A stretch of 64,000 bases of DNA, taken from Bacteroidota bacterium. Its GTDB lineage: Bacteria > Bacteroidota > Ignavibacteria > UBA10030 > UBA8401. The notes under the pieces are model-generated. The model searched no databases. It was not told the DNA's origin and saw nothing but the letters and a program-made list of their open reading frames with translations. Shown in pieces: positions 1 to 16,524 of this stretch. The stretch lies in the NCBI GenBank assembly GCA_021796215.1, contig JAJYOK010000007.1, forward strand, positions 1 to 64,000. The letters are read 5' to 3'. Made by a program: the position numbers and the translations under genes. How positions within the stretch are numbered: the first letter of the stretch is position 1; each line of letters starts with the position of its first letter.

Positions 1-3000
1 GTAACAGCAAGTAATAGTTTTACCGTCTCCGGAGTGCTGGCACTGAATGGCAATCTTGTGATGGGCTCGTACACACTTGATCAAGGGACGACAGGAACAA
101 TCAGCGGAACGGGAGATGTCACTGGTAACGTCCGGCGCAGCGGCACATTGTCAACAGGCGTCGCCTACAGTTTTGGAAGTCAATTCACAACAATCAATTT
201 TGCTTCGGGCACGCTTCCTGTTTCGATCACAATGAATATTACCACCGGTTCGGCGCCGCCGGAAAAACCGGAAGCAATTCTTCGCTATTATACAATTACC
301 ACAACCGGCGGCGGTTCGTATTCAGCGACAGCACAATTGCGGTTCCTATCAGGAGAACTGAACGGCAACGACCCTTCGACTCTTTCGCTCTGGCAACAAG
401 TGGGCGTGAATCCATATCTTGATCAGCGGAAAACAACCAACGATCTTGTAAATAATTGGGTATCGAAAGCTTCTATTACTTCTATTGTCGGTACATGGAC
501 ATTGAGTAAACAAAGTCCATTGGGATTTAACGCCGCAATTTCGGGAAATTGGAACAGCGGAGCGACGTGGGGCAACAGCGGCAATGATGTCGAAGGATCG
601 GGCTATCCGGGCGTGAACGATATTGCAAACATCAGCAACAACGTTATCGTGACGCTGACGGCAGATCAATCGTGCACAAAGCTGTACGTGTACGGTCATT
701 CAGTAGATGGAACTTCAACGCTTGCGATTGGCTCGTACGCTCTCAGCGTAGGAACTGGAGGCGTGCAGATTGCCGGAGGAACGACAGACGCGCGAATTGC
801 ACAGGTTACCATAAGCGGCGGCACGCTGAGCGTGAACGGCAATGTCACATTCAGTTCGTCTTCTGCTGTGCGGGCAGTGCTTGATATGAGCTTAAGCGCA
901 AACAGTACACTTTCGTTGACCGGCTCGATGACAAAAAGCAGCGCAGGTACATTTACTCCGGGAATATCCGGTATTGTTAATTTCATAGGAACGGCAGGCG
1001 GCCAGACGCTGAATGTTTCAAGCTTTGCATTTGCAAACGTCTATATCAACAACACGAGCGGAAGCGGAGTAACAACGAACGCAAATATCACGACGAGCAA
1101 TGTTACGGGAAATATCCGCATTCAATCAGGATTATTCAGTAACGGCGGCTATTCGATTTCTGGAAATGTGTCGGATACATTTCAGGTTGCAAACGGAACA
1201 TCATTATATCTTGTCGGAACCACGAGTTTTCCAACTGGCTTTGTGCCGCTCCTGGGATCAACAAGCGTGGTGAATTATTCGGGCGGCACCCAAGTGGTTG
1301 ATAGTTTGTCTTTTGGAAATCTTACACTGAGCGGCACCGGCGGCAAAACGATTTCGGCAGGACTTGTTGTGAGCGGAACATTCACTTATTCAAGCAGCGG
1401 CTCGACCTCTTTGCCGCCAACGCCGGGGGAAAACTTAACCTGCTCGCAATTTGCATTGAGTTCCGGTACATTTTCAGACAACGGACGGACAATCACTGTG
1501 ACTGGTTCCGGTGCGGGAGTATGGCAGAAAACGGGCGGCACATTTTCGACGACAGGAACCGTTGCGTTTACCGGCACCTCGCCGCAGATTAGCACTTCGA
1601 ATTTTGGCACATTGCAAATTAACGTCGGACTGGGGAATACGGCGACGGCATCAGGAAATCTTACGGCAACAAATTTTGCGCTGCAATCGGGTACATTCGA
1701 TCCGGGGAATAATTTGATGACGATCTCATCTGCTTTTTCACTTTCTTCCGGAACAATTTTGAAAGTCAACACTTCAACATTTGCCGGAAATTATTCTCTC
1801 GCACCGACAAGTATTGCTTCAGGTTCAACAGTTGACTATACAAATTCTTCTGCAACAGTTGCCGGAACGTTTGTCTATTCAAATTTGAAAATCAGTGGGA
1901 CAGTGAGCGGTACATCTACAGCAAGTGTCAGCGGCACGTTTACAGTAGCCGGCACTTTCAATAATCCGGGCGGCACCATAACGATGAAGAATGGAGGTTC
2001 AATTGTTGTGTCGGGCGGAACATTGGATTTTACCAACCTCACAATTGACAGCAATGCAACGGTTACTTCCGCGGCGAGTTTTGGAGTGAATGGAACACTT
2101 CAGGAATATTCCGGAGCTGTATTTGCTCCGGCGGGAACGCTGACAATGAACGGCGGTTCCACAATTTCAAACGCAGGAATTTTGACGTTTACAACTTTGT
2201 CAATTGCTGGGTCGGTAACGTCGAATACGAGTTTTAGAGTGAACGGAACTCTTAATGTCGGAGCGTCTGGGAATTTGAGTCCTGCGAGTGGAGTAATTAC
2301 GATGATTGGCACTTCAACAATTATCAATGCGGGTGTTTTGAAATTTGCTACATTGCTTGATTCAGGAACAGTAACAACTTCATCAAATTTTTCGATTGAT
2401 ACCTCGATTATTGTTGCTGCAAGCGGAAACTTAACGGCGAGCGGCGGCACTATAACAATGAATGGTGGTTCATTAATTCAGAATTCCGGCTCGCTGACGT
2501 TTTATAATTTAACCTGCGCATCGGGAAGCCCGGTGACTTCGTCGGGCAGTTTCAGTGTTTCGGGAATAATGAATGTTGCATCCGGCGCATCGTTTAATCC
2601 GACCGGCACCGTTACCATGAACGACGGCTCCTCATTTACTATCAGCGGCACTGACACACTGAACAATGTGACTGTTGGAAGCGGGACTGTAACCGGAAAT
2701 ACAAGTATCAATATTCGCGGTGTGCTGACATTAAACGGCACACTTTCAATGGGCGCAAATACACTGTGGATGGATTCAAGTGCAACGACATCGGGCACAG
2801 GCGATGTTTCCGGAAATGTGAATCGAACAACAATGCTAACAGGAGTTTCGTACAGCTTTGGCAATCAATATACAACAATAACTTTTGCTTCCGGTACACC
2901 ACCAACGTCACTCACCGTAGGCATTACCATCGGCCAGGCTCCGAGTGCGAAAACTGACGCCGTATTGCGGGAATATTCGATGACGGAAAGCGGCGGGTCG

Positions 3001-6000
3001 GGATACTCAGTGACGGTGCGCTTGCATTATCTTGATGTGGAATTAAACGGGAATACAGCGTCGAGCTTGACTGTGTGGGAAAAGATCAGCGGGGTGTATT
3101 CAAATCAAGGCAAAGCAAATTATGATCTCGTCAATAAATGGTTTGAACAATCTGGCTTCACATCGTTAGGAACAAATTGGACGCTTGCGAATCAGCCGGC
3201 GGCGGGATTTACATCAAGTGCTTCCGGAAACTGGAGCGTTGGAGCGACCTGGGGAAATCCGGGGAATAATGTGGAAGGCTCCGGTTACCCCGGACCGACG
3301 GATATCGCAACAATCAATAATAATCTTACGGTTACTCTTGATGGAAACAGAACTGTCTATCAGCTGAAGATCACCGGTTCTACAGTGGCAAACGGTACTA
3401 CGACATTTAATATGGGAAGCTACAATCTCAATGTCGGCGGCGGCGGCATAACGCTTTCGCAAGGAAGTTCTACATCACGTATTGCCAAACTTATTGATAC
3501 GACAGGAACTCTTACTGTTGACGGAGACATTACATTCACTGCTTCGTCGGCAACTGCCGCAGTATTGGATATGAGCTCCGGCGCAGCAACATTGAATCTG
3601 GCGGGCAATCTCACTCGCAATACTACAGGCACATTAAATACGGGCACAAACAGCACAATTAATTTCAACAGTTCGACGATTAATCAGATTGTAAATGTGA
3701 CAAATTTCACGTATGCTAATGTCGTGTTTAATAATTCCAGTGTCAGTGGCGCAACGATTGGCGCGGCGGTTACGACAACCAACGTGACAGGAAATATTGA
3801 AGTTCAATCGGGTGTGTTTTCAAACGGCGGTTTCGCCATAGCCGGGAACGCCGGCAAATCTTTTCTTGTGGACAGTGCGGCCGTTTTTCAATTAACTGGT
3901 ACGAGCGGATTTCCTTCCGGTTTTGGTACAACAACGCTGCATCAATCGAGCACAGTACAATATTCCGGCGGCGCGCAGACTATCAGCAATTTGAGCTACG
4001 GAAATTTGACACTTGCCGGTAATGGCGCAAAAACAATCAATACATTGCTGAGTGTGGCAGGAACATTTACCTATTCCAGTTCCGCTGCGACATCGTTGTC
4101 ATCAACCGCGGGACAAGATTTGACGACGAACAGCTTTGTGATGAATTCCGGAACGCTCAGCGACAACGGGCGGACTATCTTTGTTACCGGAACAGGCAGT
4201 GTTGTATGGATAAAGAATGGCGGTACCTTTAACGCGGCTGGGAGAGCAAAGTTTATTGGTGCATCGCCGCAAATTGGTGTTTCGAATTTTGATACGCTCG
4301 AAGTTGCCGTTGCCGGCACGGCAACAGCAGCAGGAATTTTGACGCCGACTAATTTTGTCCTGACAAGCGGAACGTTTGATCCTTCGTCGTACGGTCATAC
4401 CATCACAACGAATTTTACACTTGCCGCAGGAACAACACTGCTTGTCCGCGGCGCGGAGTTTATAACGAATTACAGCAAGGTGCCGACACAAATTGATCCA
4501 ACAAGTACAATAGAATATTCAAGCTCCGCCGTACAAACGATTTCTTCTTCAATGACATACGGAAATCTTACTCTGACGGACGGCGGTTCAAATGCTAAAT
4601 CTGCCGGTGGAAATTTGAAGATTGACGGCACCTTAACGATTAATTCTGGAGCGACATTTGACGGCAGCACATACACCGATTCGCTCTACGGCGATTTTAT
4701 CAGTAACGGAACATTCACTCCATCTTATTCTACAATTGTTTTTGCCGGAAGCTCCGCGTCAAATATCACTGGCGCTTCGACGTTCTATGGGCTTGCCGTG
4801 AACAAAACAAGTGCAAGCACAGCTGTTGATTTGAATAATAATATTAGTGTGTCTACGCTGAATGTGAGTCAGGGAATAATGCAAACGGGCTCTAATGCCG
4901 TGACAATTACCGGCACTCGCACAGGCAACGGAATTATTTTGGGGACAATAACCCATACACACAGTTTTGCGCTTTCAACGCCGTATTCATTTGAAGGTCC
5001 GAATTCTTTAATTACATTCACTTCCGGGACAACGCCAAGTTCCGTCACGATGACAGTTGCACAGACTCCGCCGGCGAATCCAACAATGGTGGCAGTCAAT
5101 CGGTCTGTTACGTTATCGAATACCGGAGGTTCATTTACAGCAACAATGCGTTTGCATTATCTCGACAGCGAAACCGACAGCCTCAATAAATATTATTTGA
5201 CGTTATGGCGGTATTCAAGCGGTTGGTCAAATTTAGGTTACACGGCGCACGACACGACTTCATCAAATAATTATGTTGAAGTCAGCAATATTTCTTCTTT
5301 TGGATCGTGTGCAATTGGCGCCAGCACTTCTTCCAAATCAATTACCGATAATAACGGCGGCGTTGCTAATGCAGGTGACACGTTAACGTGTACAATTACG
5401 GTACAAAATCCATATATTGCCGATAAAACTGCAAACCTTTCCGATACGTTGGATGCTCATTTCCTTCAAGTCGGAACAATCAGCAATTCCGGCAGTATCT
5501 CCGGTCAAACGCTGTCCGGTTCGAATCTTGTTGGAGGAACCGTGGTATGGCCTGCAATTGCACTCGGATCGGGTGCTTCAGTGTCGCGTACAGTCGAGGT
5601 ATGTTCTGATTCTACTATCGGCATAAGTCAAACAATTACCAACTCCGCTCATATAGATTACGGCAGTGGAAATTCGGAAAACGTTTCGGCATCAATTGTA
5701 TTGACCAATTCTCCAAACATCACAATGACAAACATGGTTGATAAACAGCATCCGGCGCCGGGCGACACGTTAACGTACACCATTACAGTAATCAATACTG
5801 GAACAGCAAATGCAACATCGGTTATCCTGACAAACGCGTCACCGAATAACACAACGTTTGCGCCAGATGGCTATGGTGCGGGAATGGGAGTTCAAGTGGA
5901 TGGTGTTGTAAAAACAAATGCTTCCGACGCCGATGAAGTCACGGTCAGCAGCGGAACAATTACAGTGAACTTCGGGATTATGCAGCCGGGAGTTTCACAT

Positions 6001-6036
6001 GAACATATCATTCATTTTAGAACAGTCGTTAATTAA
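1..6036 (+). CDS. Giant repetitive surface protein with C-terminal DUF11 modules (5' end outside window)
   Basis: The frame is open to the left edge, so the N-terminus is missing; the first in-window GTG at 34 need not be the start. The visible part is about 2,000 residues, very rich in Ser, Thr, Gly and Asn, made of short beta-strand repeats of the type seen in beta-helical adhesins. A large module containing SGNWNSGATWGN (about residue 169 from the GTG) returns as SGNWSVGATWGN (about residue 1063), so roughly 890 residues are duplicated; part of it appears a third time near residue 1655. The last 250 or so residues contain two DUF11-like domains, the second beginning with PGDTLTYTITVINTGTA. 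No C-terminal T9SS motif is visible. It lies 54 bp before another DUF11 protein and is probably co-transcribed. I infer a secreted or surface adhesin; the substrate is unknown. Confidence 0.8.
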   Translation, partial: VTASNSFTVSGVLALNGNLVMGSYTLDQGTTGTISGTGDVTGNVRRSGTLSTGVAYSFGSQFTTINFASGTLPVSITMNITTGSAPPEKPEAILRYYTITTTGGGSYSATAQLRFLSGELNGNDPSTLSLWQQVGVNPYLDQRKTTNDLVNNWVSKASITSIVGTWTLSKQSPLGFNAAISGNWNSGATWGNSGNDVEGSGYPGVNDIANISNNVIVTLTADQSCTKLYVYGHSVDGTSTLAIGSYALSVGTGGVQIAGGTTDARIAQVTISGGTLSVNGNVTFSSSSAVRAVLDMSLSANSTLSLTGSMTKSSAGTFTPGISGIVNFIGTAGGQTLNVSSFAFANVYINNTSGSGVTTNANITTSNVTGNIRIQSGLFSNGGYSISGNVSDTFQVANGTSLYLVGTTSFPTGFVPLLGSTSVVNYSGGTQVVDSLSFGNLTLSGTGGKTISAGLVVSGTFTYSSSGSTSLPPTPGENLTCSQFALSSGTFSDNGRTITVTGSGAGVWQKTGGTFSTTGTVAFTGTSPQISTSNFGTLQINVGLGNTATASGNLTATNFALQSGTFDPGNNLMTISSAFSLSSGTILKVNTSTFAGNYSLAPTSIASGSTVDYTNSSATVAGTFVYSNLKISGTVSGTSTASVSGTFTVAGTFNNPGGTITMKNGGSIVVSGGTLDFTNLTIDSNATVTSAASFGVNGTLQEYSGAVFAPAGTLTMNGGSTISNAGILTFTTLSIAGSVTSNTSFRVNGTLNVGASGNLSPASGVITMIGTSTIINAGVLKFATLLDSGTVTTSSNFSIDTSIIVAASGNLTASGGTITMNGGSLIQNSGSLTFYNLTCASGSPVTSSGSFSVSGIMNVASGASFNPTGTVTMNDGSSFTISGTDTLNNVTVGSGTVTGNTSINIRGVLTLNGTLSMGANTLWMDSSATTSGTGDVSGNVNRTTMLTGVSYSFGNQYTTITFASGTPPTSLTVGITIGQAPSAKTDAVLREYSMTESGGSGYSVTVRLHYLDVELNGNTASSLTVWEKISGVYSNQGKANYDLVNKWFEQSGFTSLGTNWTLANQPAAGFTSSASGNWSVGATWGNPGNNVEGSGYPGPTDIATINNNLTVTLDGNRTVYQLKITGSTVANGTTTFNMGSYNLNVGGGGITLSQGSSTSRIAKLIDTTGTLTVDGDITFTASSATAAVLDMSSGAATLNLAGNLTRNTTGTLNTGTNSTINFNSSTINQIVNVTNFTYANVVFNNSSVSGATIGAAVTTTNVTGNIEVQSGVFSNGGFAIAGNAGKSFLVDSAAVFQLTGTSGFPSGFGTTTLHQSSTVQYSGGAQTISNLSYGNLTLAGNGAKTINTLLSVAGTFTYSSSAATSLSSTAGQDLTTNSFVMNSGTLSDNGRTIFVTGTGSVVWIKNGGTFNAAGRAKFIGASPQIGVSNFDTLEVAVAGTATAAGILTPTNFVLTSGTFDPSSYGHTITTNFTLAAGTTLLVRGAEFITNYSKVPTQIDPTSTIEYSSSAVQTISSSMTYGNLTLTDGGSNAKSAGGNLKIDGTLTINSGATFDGSTYTDSLYGDFISNGTFTPSYSTIVFAGSSASNITGASTFYGLAVNKTSASTAVDLNNNISVSTLNVSQGIMQTGSNAVTITGTRTGNGIILGTITHTHSFALSTPYSFEGPNSLITFTSGTTPSSVTMTVAQTPPANPTMVAVNRSVTLSNTGGSFTATMRLHYLDSETDSLNKYYLTLWRYSSGWSNLGYTAHDTTSSNNYVEVSNISSFGSCAIGASTSSKSITDNNGGVANAGDTLTCTITVQNPYIADKTANLSDTLDAHFLQVGTISNSGSISGQTLSGSNLVGGTVVWPAIALGSGASVSRTVEVCSDSTIGISQTITNSAHIDYGSGNSENVSASIVLTNSPNITMTNMVDKQHPAPGDTLTYTITVINTGTANATSVILTNASPNNTTFAPDGYGAGMGVQVDGVVKTNASDADEVTVSSGTITVNFGIMQPGVSHEHIIHFRTVVN

Positions 6037-6090
6037 CAATAATTATATCAATAAAAATTCACAACCATTTTATAAAAAGGAGTTACACTG

Positions 6091-7179
6091 ATGAAAAAGT
6101 TTTTAAGTGCAGCAGCAGTGATTGCTTTTTTATGTTTTCTGAATGTTTCCTTCGCGCAGAAATCAAATCTCGCTATGGGAAACTATACCATCGGCGTCAT
6201 GACTGAGCCGGCTAAGGAAGGCGCCCAGTTCGGTTTTATTCAGGCTACGTCTGTCAAGCCGGAAAAAGGGGAGAAACCGTTCGGGTTTTGGTATTCCGGC
6301 GCAGTGCTTGAATTGAAAGACGCTGCGACCAAAAAAACTCTTGCAACCGTTTCAGCGAATGAACTTACTAATGGCAAGACTGTTGCAGTTGAGGGTGGAA
6401 CCCAAACAACATACAACGTAGGAAATGGTGGAAATAAATTCGATTTGTTAATTGAGTCCGTTATGAAAGCGGACGATGGAATGCCATTAGGAAAAATGCT
6501 TGTTGTGTCTTTCAAAATTAAAGGCGCCAAAGCCGCGAAAGTCAATGCAACACTGAAGATGAAAACAAATGGCGCTGCTGAAAAACTTGGAACGTCTGGA
6601 ATAATATCAAACCGAATTGTGAAAGGTGAGTCAGGTTATCCTGCTATTGTAATTACTGCTGCTGAGCCGGCAAGGATTACCGTGAGCAAGCGCCAGAAAA
6701 AGGAATTACTTCAGGACGTCTCGCTTGAAATCTCAAACGCCTCTCTTTCCACGACAGATTGGTCTAATTTGTTTGTGTTCGATGTAAGTGGTTCCACGGT
6801 GAATGATGCGGGAAAATCAATTGCCCAAGCAAATCACATTGTTAATCGCGTGACAAAAAAAGAATCCACACCGGAAGTAGTGATCTTCAATCGTACGAGT
6901 TCTGCGACGACAACACCGGGAGACACAATTACATTTACTATTTCGTACATGAATATCGGAAACGGCACCGCAACAAATGCCGAAATTACAAATCCAATTC
7001 CGGATGGCGTCACATATCTCGAAGGTTCTGCTGAAGGCGCTAACACGGAAATTTCCATCGATCGAAAAGCAGCCGTTGGAAACCAATTAGGCGAAGCGAC
7101 GCTTGTTCGCTGGAAAGTTACTAAAACAATTCTTCCCGGCGAAGGTGGAAGTGTTTCAATGCGGGCTATTGTTCGATAA
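6091..7179 (+). CDS. Secreted DUF11-domain protein
   Basis: A 362-residue protein with a clear signal peptide (MKK start, hydrophobic core, likely cleavage near residue 22 before QKSN). Residues about 25-260 form an Ala/Lys-rich region I do not recognise. Residues about 265-362 form one DUF11 domain, with TPGDTITFTISYMNIGNG and a closing LPGEGGSVSMRAIV strand. The start is supported by AAAGGAG 7-13 bp upstream of the ATG. It lies between two giant DUF11 proteins with short gaps (54 and 32 bp), so it is likely part of one operon and may be a small structural partner of the same surface layer or fibre. That role is an inference from context. Confidence 0.82.
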   Translation: MKKFLSAAAVIAFLCFLNVSFAQKSNLAMGNYTIGVMTEPAKEGAQFGFIQATSVKPEKGEKPFGFWYSGAVLELKDAATKKTLATVSANELTNGKTVAVEGGTQTTYNVGNGGNKFDLLIESVMKADDGMPLGKMLVVSFKIKGAKAAKVNATLKMKTNGAAEKLGTSGIISNRIVKGESGYPAIVITAAEPARITVSKRQKKELLQDVSLEISNASLSTTDWSNLFVFDVSGSTVNDAGKSIAQANHIVNRVTKKESTPEVVIFNRTSSATTTPGDTITFTISYMNIGNGTATNAEITNPIPDGVTYLEGSAEGANTEISIDRKAAVGNQLGEATLVRWKVTKTILPGEGGSVSMRAIVR

Positions 7180-7211
7180 GAATACACAGTGTGAGTGACA
7201 AAGGTGAAATT

Positions 7212-10200
7212 GTGAAATTCGGTCTGGCACCAAAAGCAATGCAAAGATTTTCGTTCAGCGTGCTTTTGAAAATTTTCGTTATGGCAATTACGACGGCAAG
7301 TAGTTTGTATGCAGCCGGGACACCGGCCGGGACTGTAATCAAATCGGAAGTGGTCGTTACCTACACGTCCGATAAGGGCGTTCGGTTTACAGTGTCCAAG
7401 GAGGTGCAACTGGTTGTTAAACAAGTTGCTGCTGTAAACCTCACGCCAGGCTCGTTGAGCACCACAGCGCATTTAGGGAATTTTACAATTTTTCCTCTCA
7501 CACTTGTTAATTCGGGAAACGGCTCAGATAACTTTTCTTTTAATGCCGCAAGCAGTTCGGGGAAGGAAATTGCTGTGTTTAAAGATGTTGACGGCAGCGG
7601 ATCACTAACTGCCGGCGATACGCTCGCCGGGCGATTGACGACTTCCGGTGCACTTGCAGAAGATTCCTCTATGGGCATTTTTGTGCGTGTTAGTATTCCG
7701 GATGACGAAGCGTTAAACAATCAGAGCGATCAAACATCGTTAACGGCAACTTCAAATTTTGACGCTGCAAAAAAAGTTGTATCGTTATTAAATTCAACTG
7801 TCAGGTCTCCGATTATTCACCTTCAAAATGCTTTATCAGTTAATAATCCTTCGCCCACTGTACCGGGTCCGGTAACCTATACACTTTCATTCACTAATAC
7901 TGGATCAGATTCTGCAACAAATGTTGTTGTGAGCCAAAAGTTGGATCAGCGATTTTCTTTTCTCAGTGCAACTGCTGGCGGCATTCGTTCAGGTACTGAT
8001 TCTGTTTTGTGGAATTTGTCCTCTATTGCACCAGGCGCTTCGGTAACAGTGAGTGTTACGGTAAATCTTGTTCAGGGAATTCTTAACGGAACTATAATCC
8101 CGGACAGCATGAACGTTACTTTTGGCGATGGTTCACTTCGTCGGACAAAAACCTCAAACAGCGTTACAATTTCTGTCACTTCGACTTCAAATCAACCAAA
8201 TTTCGATTTCTCCTATTCGCTTCCAGATTCGAATGTAATTGCGGGGGATACAGTTCAGATATGGTTGAAATTTAAAAACACAGGCAGTGTTACAGCCGAT
8301 ACACTGACAATTCAAAACACGATTTCAGATTCACGGCTGCATCTGCTGAACGCTTCCGGCAGTGGAGTTGTTCATGGCGACACTGTGACATGGAGGCGTT
8401 TTCATTTCGTCCCGTCAAGTTCAGGTTCTGTGTTCTTTAGAGTTGTCATCCCCTCGGGTTTTCCTGCAGGCACATTTCTTGTTTCTGTCGGTACTCTTTC
8501 GTGGCATGATTATTCACAAACAATTTCTCAGCATTTGACTGTAGGTTCATTTGCGCGGCTCGAAGTTTCAGTCGTTCCCAGCTTGTCAGTTGTCGGCTCT
8601 GGCAGAACAATTGATTATCAGATTATTGTTAAAAATACCGGAAACAGCAACGCTCTTAGCGGCGTATTGACTGATACATTAGGCACAACAGGAACTGTCG
8701 TTCAAGTTTCTCCTTTTCCGCATGTTGTTTTTGACGGTGGAAATGCGATGCGCTGGAATCTAGGGACGCTTCCTTCTTCTTCGCAACGGACATTTTTCTT
8801 GACAGCACGAGCGTTTCCAAATCTTGGAACGAGCGAGTTAAGGAATATCGCATCGTTATCTGCTTCCAACATTACAGAGCCGTCAATACAGGAAACGCTG
8901 ACGCCAATTGTTTCTGTCAGACCGGCAACAATAACATTACACGCCTCTGAACAATATATTTTTGGACAAGTCAATCAGGACAGCACAAAAATTTCTGCTT
9001 CGCTTTCAGACTCGCTGGGTTCACCGATTCCTGACGGCGTTCCTGTTGTTTTTACGACAACGCTCGGAACATTTTCGAATGATACTTCTTCGTTTACGGT
9101 ATTTACAATGAACGGATCGGCATCGGCATTTCTTCATTCTGCAGATGTTGCAAATGATGTTCGGACAGCAAATGTCACAGTAACGGCAGGTGTGCCGCAA
9201 TTCGGTACAGCTAGTGCCGGCATAGATATTATTATGTATCCGAACGCAATCACGGGCTTTGTCAAGGAAATAACAGGGAATAGTGTTATACCGGTCGTGG
9301 GTGCGATCGTACGAGTATATAGTGATTACGACACGGTACATTATGTCGGCATTGATACAAGCGATGATCAGGGATTGTATTTTGTTGCCTTAAAACACGA
9401 TTTTACAGCAAAGTATTTTATTGCAAAGATTACTGCGCTCGATAATTTTGGCGAGCCTGTAACATGGTCTACAATATTCACACAGGGAACACAACCTAAA
9501 CCCGCGGTCAAAGCTTTAAGCAGCATTGAAGGCAGATTACAATATCTCGGTACAAATTCCCCCGCACCTATTTCGGGAATTCCATTATTTCTTGATTCGT
9601 TAGGTTTATTATCTGCACAGGGAAGCGCCGGCAAAGGTGCAAGCACTCTTACATTCAACGTGCAGAAAAGCATCACGGATAAAAATGGACGGTACCTTTT
9701 TGAGAATTTACAGCCTGCAGTATATAAAATTTGGGTCGACTCCGCAAAATATCCGCAATATGCCGGCTGTGACACGATAGCGCTTTCAGGGCACGGTATC
9801 TTTACAATCAATGCAAATATTCTTGTTCAAGTTGATTCTTCTGCGGCGATGACAATGACGGTCCCGGATACGGTTTATGCGGACAGCACGTATATGCTAT
9901 TAATTCACGTAGCGAATACCGGCAATGTTAATCACACAAACATAACAGTGCGCGATACATTGAATGCACACTTTACTTTTCTTGGTGCTGCCAAAAGTGT
10001 TTTCGATTCGCTGTCTTATGATTCTTCATCGCATGCAGTGGAATGGGGTTCTGCAGTAATGCTGCATAAAACCGACACAACACTTTGGGTAAGAGTCGGT
10101 TTTGTACCGAATATACCGGACGGGACAGTTCTTACAAACAGAGCGTGGATGAAATCAGACCAGCTTAGCTCGTCGCTTACAAGCCAGCGGACAATGATTG

Positions 10201-12773
10201 TCCGTTCTTCGCCGAATATAACCTTTGGACAATTTGTTGAAGGCGGAAGCGATTCGGTTATTGCCGGCTACCCGGTCAGGCTGAAACTCTGGTTCAGTAA
10301 CACCGGCACGGATTCACTGCACAATGTGATAATACGCGATACAATTTTTAACGCAGCGTTGAGTGGAATATCTGTTCAGATTGATACATCAAAATATGGT
10401 GTAAAAGACACGGCGACAGTGCATGATTCAATTATTACTTGGAATGTTCACAGCATTCCCAGTGGTATGTTTGATACCTTGCATATTTTACTGCGCACTG
10501 ATCCACGCTTGCCGGGAGGCGTGGCGATAAAGAGTAATGGATACATGCTGCAAAACGGTGCTGAAATTTTTTCTGCAAAAAAGACTATCACAACTGTATC
10601 GAACTCTCAGCTTGCAACATATCTTGTTATCAATAAAACAGGGAACAAACGGACGGCAGAAATCGGTGACGTTGTAACGTATCAAATAACTATCACCAAT
10701 AATAGTCCGGATAGCCTGTATCACCTTCAAATCATTGATCAACTTCCGTACGCATTTACATATTACAAAGGTTCCGGCCATTACAATGGCATAGCACTTG
10801 AACCTGTGAAGCAAAATCGAACTCTTTCATGGACAATTTCGTCTTCACTGGCAAAAGGCACTCCAGCCACGCTAATCTATCAGCTTGTTCTTGGCGCCGA
10901 CGCTCTTGAGAGCGACGGCATGAACAGTGCAATTGCTGTTGCCACAACAATAGATGGTGCTCCGTTGTATTCAGCATCCTCGCAATGGCAGGTGGCGGTG
11001 AAGCCGGGAGTTTTTACCGACCGCGGCATTATTTTCGGTAAAATATTTTATGATGACGATCGAAATGCGTATCAAAGCGACGGAGAAGACGGTGTTAAGA
11101 ATGTTGAAATTTGGATGGAAGACGGTACTCGTATCACGACCGGTGATAATGGGAAATATTCTCTTCCCAATGTTAAACCCGGAGAACATGTTTTACGTGT
11201 GAATGAACGAACCCTTCCGAAGGGCACTGAGCTTACTTTAGGGAAACATAGTTTTGCAGGAGATGCTTCGTCAAGATTTGTAACACTCACTGAAGGCGGC
11301 ATAGCGCGGGCGAATTTTTACGTTAAGCGGACATTTCAGGACAGTTTGACGCAATCGGCTGCTCAGACAATCCGTCTTGCAGCACGAAAAGTTGAAACTC
11401 CCAAAGAAATTCTTGTTCGAAGCGGAGCAGGCGTAGCGTGGCAAAAGAATGTGGCGGAATATGTCCTTCAGTTTAATTACAGCGGGCCGGCATGGATTCA
11501 GCGCATTACAGTTGTTGATTCGCTGCCTGCAGGTTTCGATTACATAAAAGGCTCTGCTACATTCAATGGACAAAGTGTTGAGCCAATAATTGACGGAGAA
11601 TTCTTACGTTGGAACCTGGGCCGCGGCGTATCTCCATTTGAAGGTGAGCTCCACTATCGAGTGCAGGTTCGTTATTTTAAGCTGGAAAAAATTCCTGCAC
11701 GAAGTTATTCTTATCTGGAAATCATGAATGCGGACAGTCTTGTAACTCATCTTGATAAGCTTTGGACGACAACGTATCTCCAAGGCTCACCCTATCAGGA
11801 AACTATTTTTAAGATCGGGTTACCGATGTTTGAGGCAGGGAAAATTTCGCTACAAAATGATGCATTTGAAGCTTTTGACAAAATTTGCTCGATCGTCCGT
11901 AAATACAAGAAAGCGAATTTCATTGTTGTCGGCTTACCTGATTCTGTCGAGGGAAATGCACAACAAATTCAAGGTTCATTGCTTGCTCAGAAAAGAGCGC
12001 AGGTTGCTCTTGATTTTCTTTATCGCAGACTCGGCAAAGACAGCGTGCGTGTAACTTCGGCAGGACTATTTGACGCAGGCACGGGAGGTAACGTACCAGG
12101 GACTCTTGTTGACGAAGCTGCTGAAGAGAATCGTGCGGTGTCTCATGTAGAATTAATAATGCGCGATTATTTTGTGAGTGAGTTGGCCCCCAAACTCCCA
12201 ATTGATTCTGTGGAGGATTTCGCAATAACAGAGAATATTCCCGAGCTAGAAAAATATTACAATGATAAACTTACTGTTTCACCGGATGACCACATTATAT
12301 TTCGCACCAATTTGTTTTCAAATCCGTTGGCAAAAAACAGAGAAGTAGAATTGTTGGACACTATACCAAGCGGTCTTATGATGCAAATAAAAAAAATGTT
12401 TCTGAACGGAATACCCGTTTATTCGTTAGGAAGAAACAGCAATGTGTTCATTTCTCGGATTTCTAGTCTTTTGAAAAAGGGAAGAAATGAAATTTCCTTC
12501 GAGGCTTCAGTAACTCCGCCATTTACAACAGAAACATTAAAAAATGAAATATGGTTGAGAAGAATTAATAATTTTAATGAAGCGACTTTTGAAAAAAGTA
12601 ATGAAGTGAAAATTTTAGTTCAAAAGAAAAGATTACCCCTTTTTGAAAAAGTGGAACGATCCCTCGTGTCATTAAAAAGAGCAAACATGTCTGTTCTGGG
12701 AAGCGAAATTATTAAGCCCCCCGCAGCAAAAGAGCAAAGGGAGCTGCTACACCACTCAGTAAAGCGTAAATAG
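7212..12773 (+). CDS. Giant multi-DUF11 cell-surface protein with SdrD-B-like and OmpA-like domains
   Basis: About 1,850 residues. I chose GTG 7212 because AAAGGTG lies just upstream. GTG 7191 and ATG 7239 are alternatives; the ATG sits directly before the signal sequence (QRFSFSVLLKIFVM, cleavage near YAAG). Several DUF11 repeats follow (for example PGPVTYTLSFTNTGSDSATN and IGDVVTYQITITNNSPDS), with a carboxypeptidase-regulatory-like module around residues 690-790. Near residue 1275 an SdrD-B-like calcium-binding module begins (IFGKIFYDDDRNAYQSDGED). Residues about 1545-1660 resemble an OmpA C-terminal domain: LLAQKRAQVALDFLYRRLG, then EENRAVSHVEL, the usual RA...NR peptidoglycan-binding pattern. 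A further DUF11-like stretch ends the protein. I infer an envelope-anchored stalk or adhesin. The middle position of the OmpA-like domain is unusual. Confidence 0.8.
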   Translation: MKFGLAPKAMQRFSFSVLLKIFVMAITTASSLYAAGTPAGTVIKSEVVVTYTSDKGVRFTVSKEVQLVVKQVAAVNLTPGSLSTTAHLGNFTIFPLTLVNSGNGSDNFSFNAASSSGKEIAVFKDVDGSGSLTAGDTLAGRLTTSGALAEDSSMGIFVRVSIPDDEALNNQSDQTSLTATSNFDAAKKVVSLLNSTVRSPIIHLQNALSVNNPSPTVPGPVTYTLSFTNTGSDSATNVVVSQKLDQRFSFLSATAGGIRSGTDSVLWNLSSIAPGASVTVSVTVNLVQGILNGTIIPDSMNVTFGDGSLRRTKTSNSVTISVTSTSNQPNFDFSYSLPDSNVIAGDTVQIWLKFKNTGSVTADTLTIQNTISDSRLHLLNASGSGVVHGDTVTWRRFHFVPSSSGSVFFRVVIPSGFPAGTFLVSVGTLSWHDYSQTISQHLTVGSFARLEVSVVPSLSVVGSGRTIDYQIIVKNTGNSNALSGVLTDTLGTTGTVVQVSPFPHVVFDGGNAMRWNLGTLPSSSQRTFFLTARAFPNLGTSELRNIASLSASNITEPSIQETLTPIVSVRPATITLHASEQYIFGQVNQDSTKISASLSDSLGSPIPDGVPVVFTTTLGTFSNDTSSFTVFTMNGSASAFLHSADVANDVRTANVTVTAGVPQFGTASAGIDIIMYPNAITGFVKEITGNSVIPVVGAIVRVYSDYDTVHYVGIDTSDDQGLYFVALKHDFTAKYFIAKITALDNFGEPVTWSTIFTQGTQPKPAVKALSSIEGRLQYLGTNSPAPISGIPLFLDSLGLLSAQGSAGKGASTLTFNVQKSITDKNGRYLFENLQPAVYKIWVDSAKYPQYAGCDTIALSGHGIFTINANILVQVDSSAAMTMTVPDTVYADSTYMLLIHVANTGNVNHTNITVRDTLNAHFTFLGAAKSVFDSLSYDSSSHAVEWGSAVMLHKTDTTLWVRVGFVPNIPDGTVLTNRAWMKSDQLSSSLTSQRTMIVRSSPNITFGQFVEGGSDSVIAGYPVRLKLWFSNTGTDSLHNVIIRDTIFNAALSGISVQIDTSKYGVKDTATVHDSIITWNVHSIPSGMFDTLHILLRTDPRLPGGVAIKSNGYMLQNGAEIFSAKKTITTVSNSQLATYLVINKTGNKRTAEIGDVVTYQITITNNSPDSLYHLQIIDQLPYAFTYYKGSGHYNGIALEPVKQNRTLSWTISSSLAKGTPATLIYQLVLGADALESDGMNSAIAVATTIDGAPLYSASSQWQVAVKPGVFTDRGIIFGKIFYDDDRNAYQSDGEDGVKNVEIWMEDGTRITTGDNGKYSLPNVKPGEHVLRVNERTLPKGTELTLGKHSFAGDASSRFVTLTEGGIARANFYVKRTFQDSLTQSAAQTIRLAARKVETPKEILVRSGAGVAWQKNVAEYVLQFNYSGPAWIQRITVVDSLPAGFDYIKGSATFNGQSVEPIIDGEFLRWNLGRGVSPFEGELHYRVQVRYFKLEKIPARSYSYLEIMNADSLVTHLDKLWTTTYLQGSPYQETIFKIGLPMFEAGKISLQNDAFEAFDKICSIVRKYKKANFIVVGLPDSVEGNAQQIQGSLLAQKRAQVALDFLYRRLGKDSVRVTSAGLFDAGTGGNVPGTLVDEAAEENRAVSHVELIMRDYFVSELAPKLPIDSVEDFAITENIPELEKYYNDKLTVSPDDHIIFRTNLFSNPLAKNREVELLDTIPSGLMMQIKKMFLNGIPVYSLGRNSNVFISRISSLLKKGRNEISFEASVTPPFTTETLKNEIWLRRINNFNEATFEKSNEVKILVQKKRLPLFEKVERSLVSLKRANMSVLGSEIIKPPAAKEQRELLHHSVKRK

Positions 12774-12783
12774 CATTATGTAC

Positions 12784-12812
12784 TTGCATTCAACGAAAGG
12801 TTTTCTTATACT
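12784..12812 (+). promoter_or_regulatory. Predicted sigma70 promoter for nirK
   Basis: TTGCAT at 12784-12789, a 17-bp spacer, and TATACT at 12807-12812, 66 bp upstream of the nirK ATG. Just downstream, CAGAC-A6-GTCTG (12818-12833) forms a small perfect inverted repeat over the expected transcript start and could be an operator. The match is by eye. Confidence 0.55.
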
Positions 12813-12877
12813 ATAAACAGACAAAAAAGTCTGAAATTAACAATAACAAGATTAAATGAGCTGAAAGGAAAGACATT

Positions 12878-13897
12878 ATGGAAAAGATTTCAATGTCGAA
12901 GAAGCTGGTGATCATTTTGCCCTTTGTGATGACCGTGTTCTCTTTGTTCTTCTTATCGGGGTGCAATAAAGAAGTGAATCTTCAGAATTCAGTTGAATCA
13001 ATGTCGTTTGCGCCTGACGTTCCGCCTCAAATCACCCGCACGTTTGCCGACACCGTCAGAGTATATTTAAACGCGACAATGAAAGATATTGAGCTTGCGC
13101 CCAACGTCATGTACCACGCTTGGACATTCAATGATCATGTTCCCGGACCGTTCCTTCGCACTCGTGTCGGAGACATACTTGAAGTGCATGTTACGAACAG
13201 CGATCATACCGGCATGTTACACAATGTTGATTTTCACGCCGTCACTGGTCCCGGCGGCGGTTCAATTCTCACCAGTGTTGCGCCAGGGCAAACGCGGGTT
13301 GCATATTTCAAAATGATGCACCCAGGATTATTCGTGTATCATTGTGCAACGCAGCCGATGACAGCACATATCTCTAATGGAATGTATGGAATGATTTTAG
13401 TTCAGCCAAAAAGCGGATTGCCTTCGGTCGACCATGAATACTACGTAATGCAAAGTGAATTTTATACGACAGCGCCGGTTAAAGACTCATTGTTTGTCGA
13501 GTATTCTCCTGAAGACGGAGCGCGTGAAGACCCGCGATTTGTTGTTTTTAACGGCAGCACTGATGCGTTAATGGGTTATCGCGCGCTGAAAGCCAAGACC
13601 GGTGAAACAGTTCGTATTTATTTCGGAAATATTGGACCCAACAAAATTTCATCTTTTCATATTGTTGGCTGTATCATGGACAAAGTATATCGTGAAGGCG
13701 ATCTTGTCAGCGAGCCTGCACGGTCAATACAAACAACGCTCGTGCCTGCCGGCGGTGCCGTAGTCGTCGAAGTTAAACCGATTGTTCCCGGAAATTACAT
13801 TATGCTCGACCATTCAATGTTCAGAATGGAAAAAGGGGCAATGGGAATTTTGAGCGTTGAAGGAGAACCGCGCCCGGATATTTATAGCGGCCAATAA
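12878..13897 (+). CDS. nirK: Copper-containing nitrite reductase, lipid-anchored (AniA-like)
   Basis: Reduces nitrite to nitric oxide in denitrification, on the periplasmic or surface side. The 339-residue protein has a lipoprotein signal with lipobox LSGC (Cys29). Two cupredoxin domains follow. All expected ligands are visible: type 1 copper His115, Cys156, His164 and Met169; type 2 copper His120, His155 and His312 (the last from a neighbouring subunit in the trimer). The catalytic Asp118 (in HNVDFH) and His261 (in SSFHIVG) are also present. The short Cys156-His164 spacing matches the AniA-type class rather than the Alcaligenes/Achromobacter class. AAAGGAAAG upstream supports the start. No nor, nos or cytochrome donor genes are nearby, so it looks like a stand-alone gene with its own promoter. 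Confidence 0.95.
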   Translation: MEKISMSKKLVIILPFVMTVFSLFFLSGCNKEVNLQNSVESMSFAPDVPPQITRTFADTVRVYLNATMKDIELAPNVMYHAWTFNDHVPGPFLRTRVGDILEVHVTNSDHTGMLHNVDFHAVTGPGGGSILTSVAPGQTRVAYFKMMHPGLFVYHCATQPMTAHISNGMYGMILVQPKSGLPSVDHEYYVMQSEFYTTAPVKDSLFVEYSPEDGAREDPRFVVFNGSTDALMGYRALKAKTGETVRIYFGNIGPNKISSFHIVGCIMDKVYREGDLVSEPARSIQTTLVPAGGAVVVEVKPIVPGNYIMLDHSMFRMEKGAMGILSVEGEPRPDIYSGQ

Positions 13898-13935
13898 GCA
13901 ATGATAAATGAAATTCTGTCAAAATTCAGCCGATG

Positions 13936-13964
13936 TTGACACTTCATAAAATCATAAGTAAATT
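13936..13964 (+). promoter_or_regulatory. Predicted sigma70 promoter for nadA
   Basis: TTGACA at 13936-13941, a 17-bp spacer, and TAAATT at 13959-13964. The -10 ends only 6 bp before the nadA ATG at 13971, so the expected transcript start falls on or next to the start codon, which suggests a leaderless mRNA. Confidence 0.5.
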
Positions 13965-13970
13965 ACTTTT

Positions 13971-14936
13971 ATGATTGACGTTTTATCACATACTGATCCG
14001 AAGCTTCACGCGTTGCAGCTTGATTTGAAAGAAGAGATTCTGCATTTAAAAAAAGAATTGAATGCAGTTATCCTTGCGCATTACTATCAGGAATCCGAAA
14101 TCCAAGACTTAGCAGATTTTGTCGGCGATAGTCTTGACCTCTCCCGCCGTGCGGCTTCAACAAATGCTGACGTGATTGTTTTTGCCGGTGTTCATTTTAT
14201 GGCTGAGACTGCAAAAATACTGAATCCGTTGAAGCAGGTTTTGTTGCCGGATATTGAAGCTGGCTGCTCGCTTGCTGATAGCTGCCCTGCTGCGCAGTTC
14301 AAAGCCTTTCGCCAACTGCATCCGGATCACATATCAATTACTTATATCAATTGCTCTGCAGAAGTCAAAGCGCTCAGCGACATTATCTGCACGTCAAGCA
14401 ACGCGGAGAAAATTATAAATCAAATCCCCGTTGAGCGCCCGATTCTATTTTCTCCTGACAGGAATCTTGGCGCTTATCTTCAAAAGAAAACAAATCGCGA
14501 CATGCTTTTATGGAACGGCAGCTGCATTGTGCATGAAACGTTCAGTGAGCGAAAGATTATCGGTTTACAGATTGAACACCCCGAAGCAAAGCTTATTGCA
14601 CATCCTGAATGCGAAGAGCCGATTCTACGACGGGCGGATTTTGTCGGTTCAACCAGTGCCTTGCTAAAGTACACACAGTCTTCACCAGAAAAGGAATTTA
14701 TTGTTGCGACGGAGGTTGGAATTCTGCATCAAATGCAAAAAGCTTGCCCGAATAAGATTTTTATTCCTGCACCGCCGGATGAGAATTGCGCCTGCAATGA
14801 ATGTCCGCACATGAAGCGTAACACAGTCGAAAAGCTTTACTCCTGCATGAAAAACCGCCAACCAGAAATAATTCTGGATGCGTTGCTGATGAAGCGTGCG
14901 TTGACACCAATTCATCGCATGTTGGAGATGAGTTAG
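13971..14936 (+). CDS. nadA: Quinolinate synthase
   Basis: Condenses iminoaspartate with dihydroxyacetone phosphate to quinolinate in de novo NAD synthesis, in the cytoplasm, using an oxygen-sensitive [4Fe-4S] cluster. The 321 residues have the family pattern: LAHYYQ near residue 36, [10 protein letters not shown] near 50, and three cluster cysteines at about Cys99 (EAGCSLAD), Cys185 (NGSCIVHE) and Cys278 (the last Cys of CACNECPHM). The length is usual for the shorter NadA form. There is no Shine-Dalgarno sequence before the ATG; see the promoter entry. nadB and nadC are not in the window, so the gene stands alone between nirK and asnS. Confidence 0.96.
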
Positions 14937-14980
14937 GTTCACGCCTTTATAAAACTCATTCTAAAAAAGATGCTCTCTTC

Positions 14981-15011
14981 AAGAAATCCCGCTTTCTAAA
15001 CGGGATTTCTT
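14981..15011 (+). terminator. Hairpin terminator after nadA
   Basis: A perfect 11-bp inverted repeat (AAGAAATCCCG and CGGGATTTCTT) with a 9-base loop, 44 bp after the nadA stop. The T-tract is short and interrupted. Confidence 0.65.
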
Positions 15012-15034
15012 GTTCCATGGAGATTCTTCGGAAT

Positions 15035-15063
15035 TTGTGAATCATGCCCAAGTTTCGTATATT
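15035..15063 (+). promoter_or_regulatory. Predicted sigma70 promoter for asnS
   Basis: TTGTGA at 15035-15040, a 17-bp spacer and TATATT at 15058-15063, between the nadA terminator and asnS. Found by eye. Confidence 0.5.
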
Positions 15064-15097
15064 TTTCACGACAAATTTAAAAGGATGAGATTCACAC

Positions 15098-16396
15098 ATG
15101 AGCTCTCGCGTTTACATCGAAAATCTTGCTGATTATATTGGTAAAGAGGTAAGTATTGCCGGCTGGCTCTATAATAAACGATCGAGCGGCAAAATTCGTT
15201 TTCTCATTATTCGTGATGGAACAGGATTACTGCAGGGAGTAATCGTAAAACAGAATGTCAGCGAAGAAGTTTTTAATACTTTCGATTCGCTCACACAGGA
15301 ATCGTCGTTAAGCATACGCGGAACGATTCGCAAAGATGATCGGGCACCGGGCGGTTATGAAATGGATGTGACTCATGTAGAAATTATTTCCATCGCGAAA
15401 GAATATCCCATCACTCCGAAAGAACACGGCGTCGAATTTCTGATGGATCGCCGTCATCTCTGGCTTCGGTCTCAGCGCCAACACGCCATTTTGCGTATCC
15501 GGCACGAAATCATTCGTTCGATTCGGGAATTTTTCGATGGCCGCGGTTTTCTGTTGATGGATGCGCCGATCTTTACGCCAGCCGCGTGCGAGGGAACGTC
15601 CACATTGTTTGAAACGGAATATTTTGATTTAGGAAAAGCATATCTTACACAATCAGGCCAGCTCTATGGCGAAGCCGGTGCATTGGCGTTTGGAAAGGTG
15701 TACGTTTTCGGTCCCACATTCCGCGCAGAAAAATCAAAGACCCGCCGGCATTTGACTGAGTTTTGGATGGTCGAACCGGAGGTGGCGTTCAATGATTTGA
15801 ATGACGATATGGACCTGGCAGAAGAATTTCTTGAACATATTGTCAGCAGTGTTTTGAAGAATCGCTCTGCAGAATTAAAAACACTTGAACGAAATACAAA
15901 ATTTCTGGAAAAGGTGAAGAAACCGCTTCCGAGAATTACTTATGACGAGGCTGTGGCGATTCTTCACAAAAAGGGAACAGCATTTGAGTGGGGGAATGAC
16001 TTTGGCGGAACGGATGAAACAGTTATTTCAGAAGAGTTTGATCGGCCGGTCATGGTACATCGTTATCCGTCGAAAGTTAAAGCGTTCTATATGAAACGTG
16101 ATCCGCAGAATGAAGAACTTGCGCTTGCCGTTGATGTGCTGGCACCGGAAGGTTATGGTGAAATTATTGGCGGCAGCCAGCGTGAGGACGATTACGATAC
16201 GATTCTCAAGCGATTGCACGAACACAATCTTCCGGAGTCCGCTTTCGAATGGTATCTTGATTTGCGACGTTTTGGTTCAGTTCCTCATTCAGGATTTGGT
16301 TTAGGCGTGGAAAGAACAGTTTCATGGATTTGCGGCTTGGATCATGTGCGGGAAACTATTCCGTTCCCAAGAATGATTTACCGCCTGACACCGTGA
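15098..16396 (+). CDS. asnS: Asparaginyl-tRNA synthetase
   Basis: Charges tRNA-Asn with asparagine; a class II synthetase. The 432 residues begin with an OB-fold anticodon-binding domain (about 1-105). The catalytic core has motif 2 at about 208-228 ([21 protein letters not shown] region) and motif 3 near 400 ([15 protein letters not shown]), then [10 protein letters not shown]. The [15 protein letters not shown] form of motif 2 separates it from aspartyl-tRNA synthetase. The length is normal. AAAGGATGAG upstream supports the ATG. It is transcribed alone, between a terminator and a 129-bp gap before the ABC genes. Confidence 0.96.
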
Positions 16397-16524
16397 ACTA
16401 TAGGAAAGATAAAAGTGACTGAGTTGATAAAACTTTCTTCACGCATATTAATGACCTTTATACAAATAACTGCACATATATTTGGCAACTCAAATACTCA
16501 ACACGCCCGCTAACTTTACTACGA

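Follow-up and report, generated by a model that had tools for sequence, protein, structure and literature searches.

In chaperone-usher pili (FimD/PapC), subunits are joined by donor-strand exchange, in which the N-terminal extension of the next subunit completes an Ig-like domain, and SpyTag/SpyCatcher is of the split-domain type. Among very large outer-membrane barrels, SprA has 36 strands (PMC7463736), and the DUF11 domain of the crystal structure 9ifr carries the isopeptide residues Lys715, Asp748 and Asn806 (PMC12617251). The grappling hooks GhpA and GhlA are described as very long DUF11 cell-surface filaments, in which one giant protein forms the whole filament and which are secreted in Aureispira by the type IX secretion system (T9SS) (PMC13319060, PMC11205867). 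Here we analyse a cluster of genes for DUF11 proteins that occupies positions 1 to 12,773 of a 64,000-nucleotide (nt) stretch of contig JAJYOK010000007.1 from a Bacteroidota bacterium (the whole stretch is called the window). With a rough probability of 0.55, we think that this cluster encodes a multi-protein surface fibre with split DUF11 domains as joints, an OmpA-like base and an usher/SprA-like barrel as platform.

The three open reading frames (ORFs) of this region (1-6036, 6091-7179 and 7191-12773) follow one another, as a preliminary description made from the sequence alone had stated, and lie on the same strand with spacers of 54 and 11 nt. Since the window starts at a contig end, ORF 1 is incomplete at its 5' end, and a dedicated barrel gene was hidden from that description. 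Contig C38, read on its reverse strand, shares its last 127 nt with the start of the window, and the frame stays open across the join, ORF 1 being the final 2,011 residues of a tip protein of ~4,555 amino acids (aa) when joined, with five repeats of ~893 aa each; the giant protein of the sister species G001 gives a single alignment spanning the join, at 82% identity. C38 carries upstream genes for the barrel protein (1,042 aa), a DUF11 protein of 640 aa and a regulator of 294 aa, so that the cluster order reads regulator, DUF11 linker (640 aa), barrel, tip (4,555 aa), small DUF11 protein (362 aa) and linker-base protein (1,860 aa, hereafter protein 3). A larger cluster has been severed by the contig end, and the three ORFs make up its downstream half: the operon of the preliminary description has three real genes, but two further cluster genes lie upstream and ORF 1 is only a protein's end. 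Its "giant DUF11 proteins" were found to the extent that Pfam and NCBIfam models match DUF11 in all three, but ORF 1 has a single DUF11, at its extreme end (overlooked in the joined giant by our local DUF11 model and detected by Pfam), and an array is present only in protein 3. The interpretation given in that description is borne out in part, as regards the absence of T9SS tails and the predicted OmpA fold.

Clusters of the same family of bacteria encode a DUF11 protein (~600 aa), the barrel, a tip of ~2,500-4,555 aa, a small DUF11 protein, one or two ~560-aa DUF11 proteins and a ~1,580-aa protein combining DUF11, SdrD_B and OmpA, several of these loci being interrupted by contig ends. When only strong matches were considered (E < 1e-100 for the barrel, E < 1e-60 for the base), barrel and base occurred together in 18 of 60 relatives, barrel alone in 2, base alone in 1 and neither in 39. 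In a one-genome-per-species collection 328 barrel relatives were found; the best 80 were kept as named loci, some of which share genomes with loci from the separate search of relatives, and BLASTP recovered the barrel ORF in 78 of them. The records of these best 80 are from Bacteroidota/Ignavibacteria, Neomarinimicrobiota, KSB1, Omnitrophota, Brocadiia and Lentisphaeria, and also from Candidatus Uabimicrobium, delta-, gamma- and betaproteobacteria and Campylobacteraceae. In 71/78 loci, DUF11 was present in the barrel protein or in the run of same-strand genes to which it belongs; within the barrel protein itself, DUF11 was found in 16/78 and OmpA in 6/78. Loci such as L082, L083, L085, L086, L089 and L090 have a different order, namely tip (586-611 aa, or more than 1,300 aa where cut at the locus edge), small protein (~160-180 aa), linker (~560-625 aa), DUF11n protein with or without OmpA, and barrel. 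Locus L128 encodes DUF7507/DUF11, a weak SdrD_B match, OmpA and barrel in this order in one polypeptide, and on plasmid p4 of Acinetobacter haemolyticus (L040, CP085288.1) a DUF11-barrel fusion, an OmpA protein and a DUF11 protein adjoin one another. The barrel family is wide, and the same parts recur in many phyla. The Acinetobacter plasmid carries a mobilizable annotation.

The way in which these parts are joined is suggested by a split DUF11 pattern that the preliminary description had not noticed (domain-end, donor-model, reversed-model and residue counts, here and below, take in the named loci only). A complete DUF11 has a strand ending xFxVxI and then a segment GTxIxNxAxxxY, and a pattern N-x-A-x-V lies within 40 residues after 244 of 276 internal DUF11s. 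Proteins with DUF11 as their only domain type ended at most four residues past the last DUF11 match, before that segment, in 87 of 107 cases; the same ending was seen in 0/35 OmpA-bearing DUF11 proteins and 0/14 barrel fusions. In the window genome, Pfam matches reached model positions 76-84 of 114 in the terminal DUF11s of the tip, the small protein, the 640-aa protein and a paralogous linker on contig C28, and 93-113 in 17 of 20 internal DUF11s (the other three end at 84-88); for a further terminal DUF11, where C28 begins, the match extends to 99 solely by reading past its stop.

The segment that is missing from terminal DUF11s follows the signal peptide in other proteins of the same clusters. 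When a donor model was made from internal post-strand copies only, scores of at least 5 bits were found in 28/37 terminal-DUF11 proteins of 450-800 aa, 19/33 OmpA proteins, 5/11 barrel fusions and 9/19 other DUF11 proteins. Among the remaining terminal-DUF11 proteins this score was reached in 1/12 small ones, 2/14 of 250-450 aa and 2/8 large ones, and outside these groups in 1/59 stand-alone barrels and 1/480 other ORFs. The reversed model gave 0/37 for the 450-800-aa class, 0/14 for 250-450 aa, 0/19 for other DUF11 proteins, 0/59 for barrels and 0/480 for other ORFs. Donor counts omit ORFs cut at the 5' end and acceptor counts those cut at the 3' end; the size classes are crude, some donor-less proteins of linker size looking like short tips and some other donor-bearers like linkers. 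The tip, the small protein and the barrel of the window cluster score below zero. Judged from these models, tips tend to be acceptors only, linkers both and bases donors only, a class pattern which fits the requirement of a head-to-tail chain.

We propose that the five proteins would reach the periplasm by Sec (signal peptides were recognised by eye). Tip, small protein and linker (~570-640 aa) would each end in a DUF11 without its last strands, and the N-terminal segment of a linker or base would supply these strands, completing the domain of the preceding protein, so that tip, linkers and base might form a head-to-tail chain with a putative role in adhesion. Protein 3 may be a natural experiment in this respect, in which the predicted joint has been turned into a gene fusion. 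Its two halves are separate genes in the same-genus genomes G001 and G002, with a linker of 565 or 571 aa and a base of 1,586 or 1,594 aa. Residues 34-63 of the G002 base, its free donor segment, align with residues 300-331 of protein 3, which form a strand segment of an internal linker DUF11, and the linker similarity within protein 3 stops by residue 365 at the latest. The halves are fused at the donor segment, and therefore one chain holds a completed domain of the type predicted for the joint.

The same genes could instead encode independent adhesins, that is, separately exported and anchored stalks with ordinary DUF11 boundaries, in which the N-terminal segment folds with the protein's own first domain and the OmpA protein binds peptidoglycan. 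This explanation, which is close to the view of the preliminary description, would be in line with the frequent use of DUF11 in the stalks of fibrillar adhesins (PMC12617251) and with the lack of isopeptide residues in the window joints; it does not account for the recurrence of one cut place in most DUF11-only proteins, for the missing piece beginning just the other classes of the cluster, or for the coincidence of the fusion point with the predicted joint, and we regard it as unlikely.

In relatives, a split joint of the fibre might also be locked covalently. In 12 internal DUF11s of the cluster, Asp and Asn are invariant and the Lys at the start is present in 8; in the first of these sequences Asp and Asn are spaced 34 and 91 from Lys. 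The profile alignment to the 9ifr chain places Asn at residue 101, which equals Asn806 given continuous numbering, and Lys at residue 10. With the A4 profile, 9ifr was matched in the PDB at E 0.0032, ranked behind 4uzg, and a phmmer search of the PDB with one DUF11 gave no match at E <= 0.01. A split version, with Lys and Asp on the acceptor and Asn on the donor, appears to exist in many relatives. Lys plus Asp/Glu was found in 35/85 acceptors (38 with Lys, 60 with Asp/Glu) and 243/352 internal domains, and Asn in 60/67 donors called by a pattern that yields a few false calls (for example, in a signal peptide of L062). In seven loci (the six listed above and L088), Lys plus Asp/Glu is found in the tips and linkers and Asn in the linkers and bases, the ~160-aa proteins being without Lys. 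In four window-type loci (L175, L176, L183, L184) Lys and Asp are kept in the base-adjacent linker, with Asn in the base donor. Phylogeny is a confounder of the association between Lys in acceptors and Asn in donors. Where the three residues are present, an isopeptide bond could form autocatalytically and close the joint. For the window genome, covalent joints were rejected, since the required residues are missing: 0/3 acceptors have Lys and Asp at the expected places and both donors have, by eye, Ser for Asn. The window joints would be non-covalent for this reason, and the linker-base joint would now be part of one polypeptide. The wider proposal, a widespread and so far undescribed natural split CLIPPER fibre machine of diderms that is built on a SprA-sized barrel without sortase and locks itself covalently in many lineages, is put forward tentatively, as somewhat less probable than its negation.

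At the base of the proposed chain, protein 3 has an OmpA-like domain that is real but degenerate. Its Pfam match (residues 1546-1621) scores 19.1 bits, below the curated cut-off of 27.2, and the best E value of the segment sequence against the PDB was only 0.095. The structure model of window positions 11268-12770 (pLDDT 71.1, parts of the OmpA-like domain below 50) nevertheless bears out the predicted OmpA fold: in VIA-align, model residues ~180-300 match the peptidoglycan-binding domains of TagL (Z 12.9, 103 aligned residues, root mean square deviation (rmsd) 2.5) and of Klebsiella OmpA (Z 12.6, 113 aligned, rmsd 3.5). D1584 and R1602, which we take to be the positions of the OmpA diaminopimelate contacts, are kept, and the N..LS motif and the NRRV end are lost. 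The protein does not end in this domain, as the preliminary description had it, since the domain occupies residues 1547-1650 of 1,860 and ~200 residues follow. Six relatives of protein 3 have a canonical OmpA copy at the extreme C-terminus, which is absent from the window protein, and paralogous bases have two canonical copies. The OmpA-like domains of the base would hold the chain to peptidoglycan; for the window copy such anchoring is plausible.

The barrel family is described by no Pfam or NCBIfam model; in the 40 members compared, the scattered weak matches are mostly to Ig-like domains, and of the 22 Pfam families that these members match at E <= 1 none is the usher family. In the structure model (pLDDT 78.7) of a relative with 85% identity, an Ig-like part at the N-terminus is followed by ~38-40 strands, counted by hand from the DSSP list with barrel closure unchecked, and a short inserted domain near 376-445. 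In VIA-align, OccD3 had the highest Z (17.0), the FimD/PapC ushers gave Z ~14-16 over 317-362 residues (rmsd 6-13), and the longest alignment among the matches listed was to SprA (493 residues, Z 12.7, rmsd 11.2). Foldseek ranked SprA first (TM 0.15) and SlpA of Deinococcus second (TM 0.20-0.24). A segment common to barrel and SprA, columns 371-541, was recovered by hhalign with a probability of 87.9% (reversed control 0.2%), and this segment is also common to a family of 1,045-1,261-aa proteins (96.2%, reversed 0.1%). Such proteins occur in relatives at L197-L206, where the SprA-like segment in common with barrel and SprA reads DYxIDYxxGxIxF. Full-length SprA homology of the barrel was rejected, as only this local segment is in common: the barrel on C38 has no match to TIGR04189 (SprA), and in the barrel family one protein (G067) has a local match (E 9.5e-4). 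This very large barrel might serve as a platform in the outer membrane that either lets the chain pass through or holds it, and we regard export through it as a weaker prediction than self-ligation in relatives.

With SlpA as the second Foldseek match and OmpA domains as typical tethers, the cluster could also form a structural tether between outer membrane and peptidoglycan, or an S-layer-like lattice, instead of a fibre. The TM-scores to SlpA are low, and outside the genus the tips align best only in their last ~300-510 residues, which suits a variable exposed tip; we consider such a tether improbable. A similarly small chance is given to export by the T9SS of this genome, in which case the Ig-like DUF11 at the end of the proteins would be a T9SS signal that has gone unrecognised. 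The genome does encode SprA, with C14 as the only TIGR04189 match, and has 102 matches to the tail model TIGR04183, and like a T9SS tail the terminal DUF11 is Ig-like and stands at the extreme C-terminus. A T9SS tail on the three proteins was rejected, in agreement with the preliminary description: no tail model is among their Pfam and NCBIfam matches at E <= 0.1, and none of the 102 TIGR04183 matches falls within positions 1-12773. Moreover, protein 3 and its relatives are without a terminal DUF11, and barrel clusters stand in genomes without a SprA match (6/16 searched, G066 and G068-G072, their completeness not being established). Type 11 secretion was likewise rejected, since its cargo carry small eight-stranded barrels (PMC12282271); most of the "DUF11" text matches displayed for this paper are the beginning of "DUF1194".

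Several observations weigh against a fibre with split DUF11 joints. Among the DUF11-only proteins, 20/107 are without the truncated ending, and the donor score is below 5 bits in 9/37 proteins of linker size and 14/33 OmpA proteins; some of these low scorers are explained (fragments, unrelated OmpA proteins, tip-like proteins), others are not. The reversed model also reaches 5 bits, in 2/12 small, 2/33 OmpA and 1/8 large proteins and in 1/11 barrel fusions. The donors of the window itself are weak, with 6.7 bits for the 640-aa linker (E 0.38 alone) and 6.1 for protein 3 (E 0.56), and its joints are without isopeptide residues. In L172, L174, L179 and L182 the base retains Asn though the acceptor Lys is lost, which argues against a strict code. 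Only 39/78 loci have an OmpA domain in the barrel protein or in the run of same-strand genes to which it belongs, and the barrel's structural matches come with high rmsd and low TM-scores. The cluster shows no dedicated chaperone: Pfam gave no chaperone model for any of its five proteins (this search did not extend to the rest of the genome).

The proposed fibre would work like a chaperone-usher fibre, yet by the tests made it is a member of neither that family nor the T9SS. It resembles chaperone-usher systems in the incomplete Ig-like domain that would be completed by the N-terminus of the next subunit, and in a large barrel that has a plug-like insertion and, as modelled, aligns with ushers at Z 14-16; it differs in that the Ig part is DUF11, with the acceptor at the C-terminus of very large multidomain proteins, and in its ~38-40 strands and the lack of usher or chaperone model matches. 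With SprA it shares the very large barrel, the local segment and the longest aligned fold match, whereas the barrel is half as long, has no full-length profile match, occurs in genomes without a SprA match and is accompanied by cargo without T9SS tails. The internal DUF11s agree with the DUF11/CLIPPER stalk in the domain and its Lys-Asp-Asn spacing, and the 9ifr structure is itself named OmpA-like domain-containing protein; here the domain is predicted to be cut between two natural proteins, whereas the source on that stalk treats intramolecular bonds and in the text searched does not mention "split" or "SpyTag" (PMC12617251). Unlike the GhpA/GhlA hooks, this system has several proteins, its own barrel and an OmpA base. 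The OmpA-like domain shares with PF00691 the fold and the kept Asp and Arg, but the window copy is degenerate, below the Pfam cut-off and situated inside a DUF11 array. Many relatives have acceptor residues (Lys, Asp) and donor residue (Asn) on separate proteins, as in SpyTag/SpyCatcher. A literature search of open-licence papers found no description of such a split-DUF11 fibre system.

The coordinates of the features are collected in Table 1. Protein 3 has 1,860 aa when read from GTG, and an alternative ATG is at 7239. The 294-aa regulator has a MerR-type helix-turn-helix and a B12-binding-like domain and resembles light- or B12-sensing regulators; a relative of it stands ahead of the cluster in six relatives.

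Table 1. Features of the cluster; coordinates are window positions unless another contig is given.
Feature	Position	Strand	Basis
MerR/B12-type regulator	L008:13037-13918 (contig C38, outside the window)	-	
Tip protein, C-terminal part (2,011 residues; beta-repeat)	1..6033	+	Open 5' end, C38 overlap, repeats
Tip, C-terminal ~510 residues, best-aligning region with other genera	4507..6033	+	Alignments to relatives
Tip, terminal DUF11 (putative acceptor), ends ...HFRTVVN-stop, without last strands	5707..6033	+	Pfam DUF11 to 72-76/114
Small 362-aa DUF11 protein, signal peptide by eye	6091..7176	+	
Small protein, terminal DUF11 (putative acceptor), ends ...SMRAIVR-stop	6880..7176	+	Pfam DUF11 to profile position 84/114
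Protein 3, fusion of linker and DUF11/SdrD_B/OmpA base	7191..12770	+	Two genes in same-genus G001, G002
Protein 3, N-terminal donor-like segment GTPAGTVIKSEVVVTY, just past signal peptide	7311..7373	+	6.1 bits, E 0.56 alone
Linker-base fusion region, residues 300-333	8088..8189	+	Alignment to G002 base
DUF11 array, seven local-model matches, residues 217-1493	7839..11669	+	Local model; also Pfam, NCBIfam
SdrD_B domain, residues 1285-1353	11043..11249	+	Pfam/NCBIfam
Degenerate OmpA-like domain, residues 1547-1650	11829..12140	+	Local profile E 1.2e-18; fold match
D1584 (11940-11942) to R1602 (11994-11996), kept OmpA positions	11940..11996	+	

The window genome has 25 DUF11 matches, 22 of which fall in two clusters; a single protein on contig C26 has the other 3. 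The second cluster is the paralogous one on contig C28 (L042, C28:1-20000), with a DUF11 linker, a 2,288-aa DUF11n protein with two OmpA domains and a second barrel; the contig begins inside another protein that ends in a terminal DUF11. The C26 protein (L187, C26:1-4090) is a DUF11 ORF truncated at the contig end (1,363 aa); it lies outside both clusters and has by eye no donor motif at its N-terminus. A promoter and terminator scan of 5900-13100 was uninformative, with 19 promoter-like sites (shuffles 12.6, sd 3.1) and 3 terminator-like sites (6.8, sd 2.9). Downstream, window positions 12878-17688 hold a multicopper-oxidase-like gene and then, by look, nadA, asnS and an ABC transporter gene, an order kept in G002.

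If true, the proposed mechanism, which is specific and quickly testable, would be a new way of joining surface proteins, by which bacteria with an outer membrane might build and anchor very long fibres without sortase or T9SS tails, and it would give a role to a large barrel family that lacks any Pfam or NCBIfam description. It also points to natural protein-ligation pairs, in which the reactive residues seem to vary from joint to joint. Self-ligation in the relatives is a sharp prediction and, if true, would represent a natural SpyTag/SpyCatcher.

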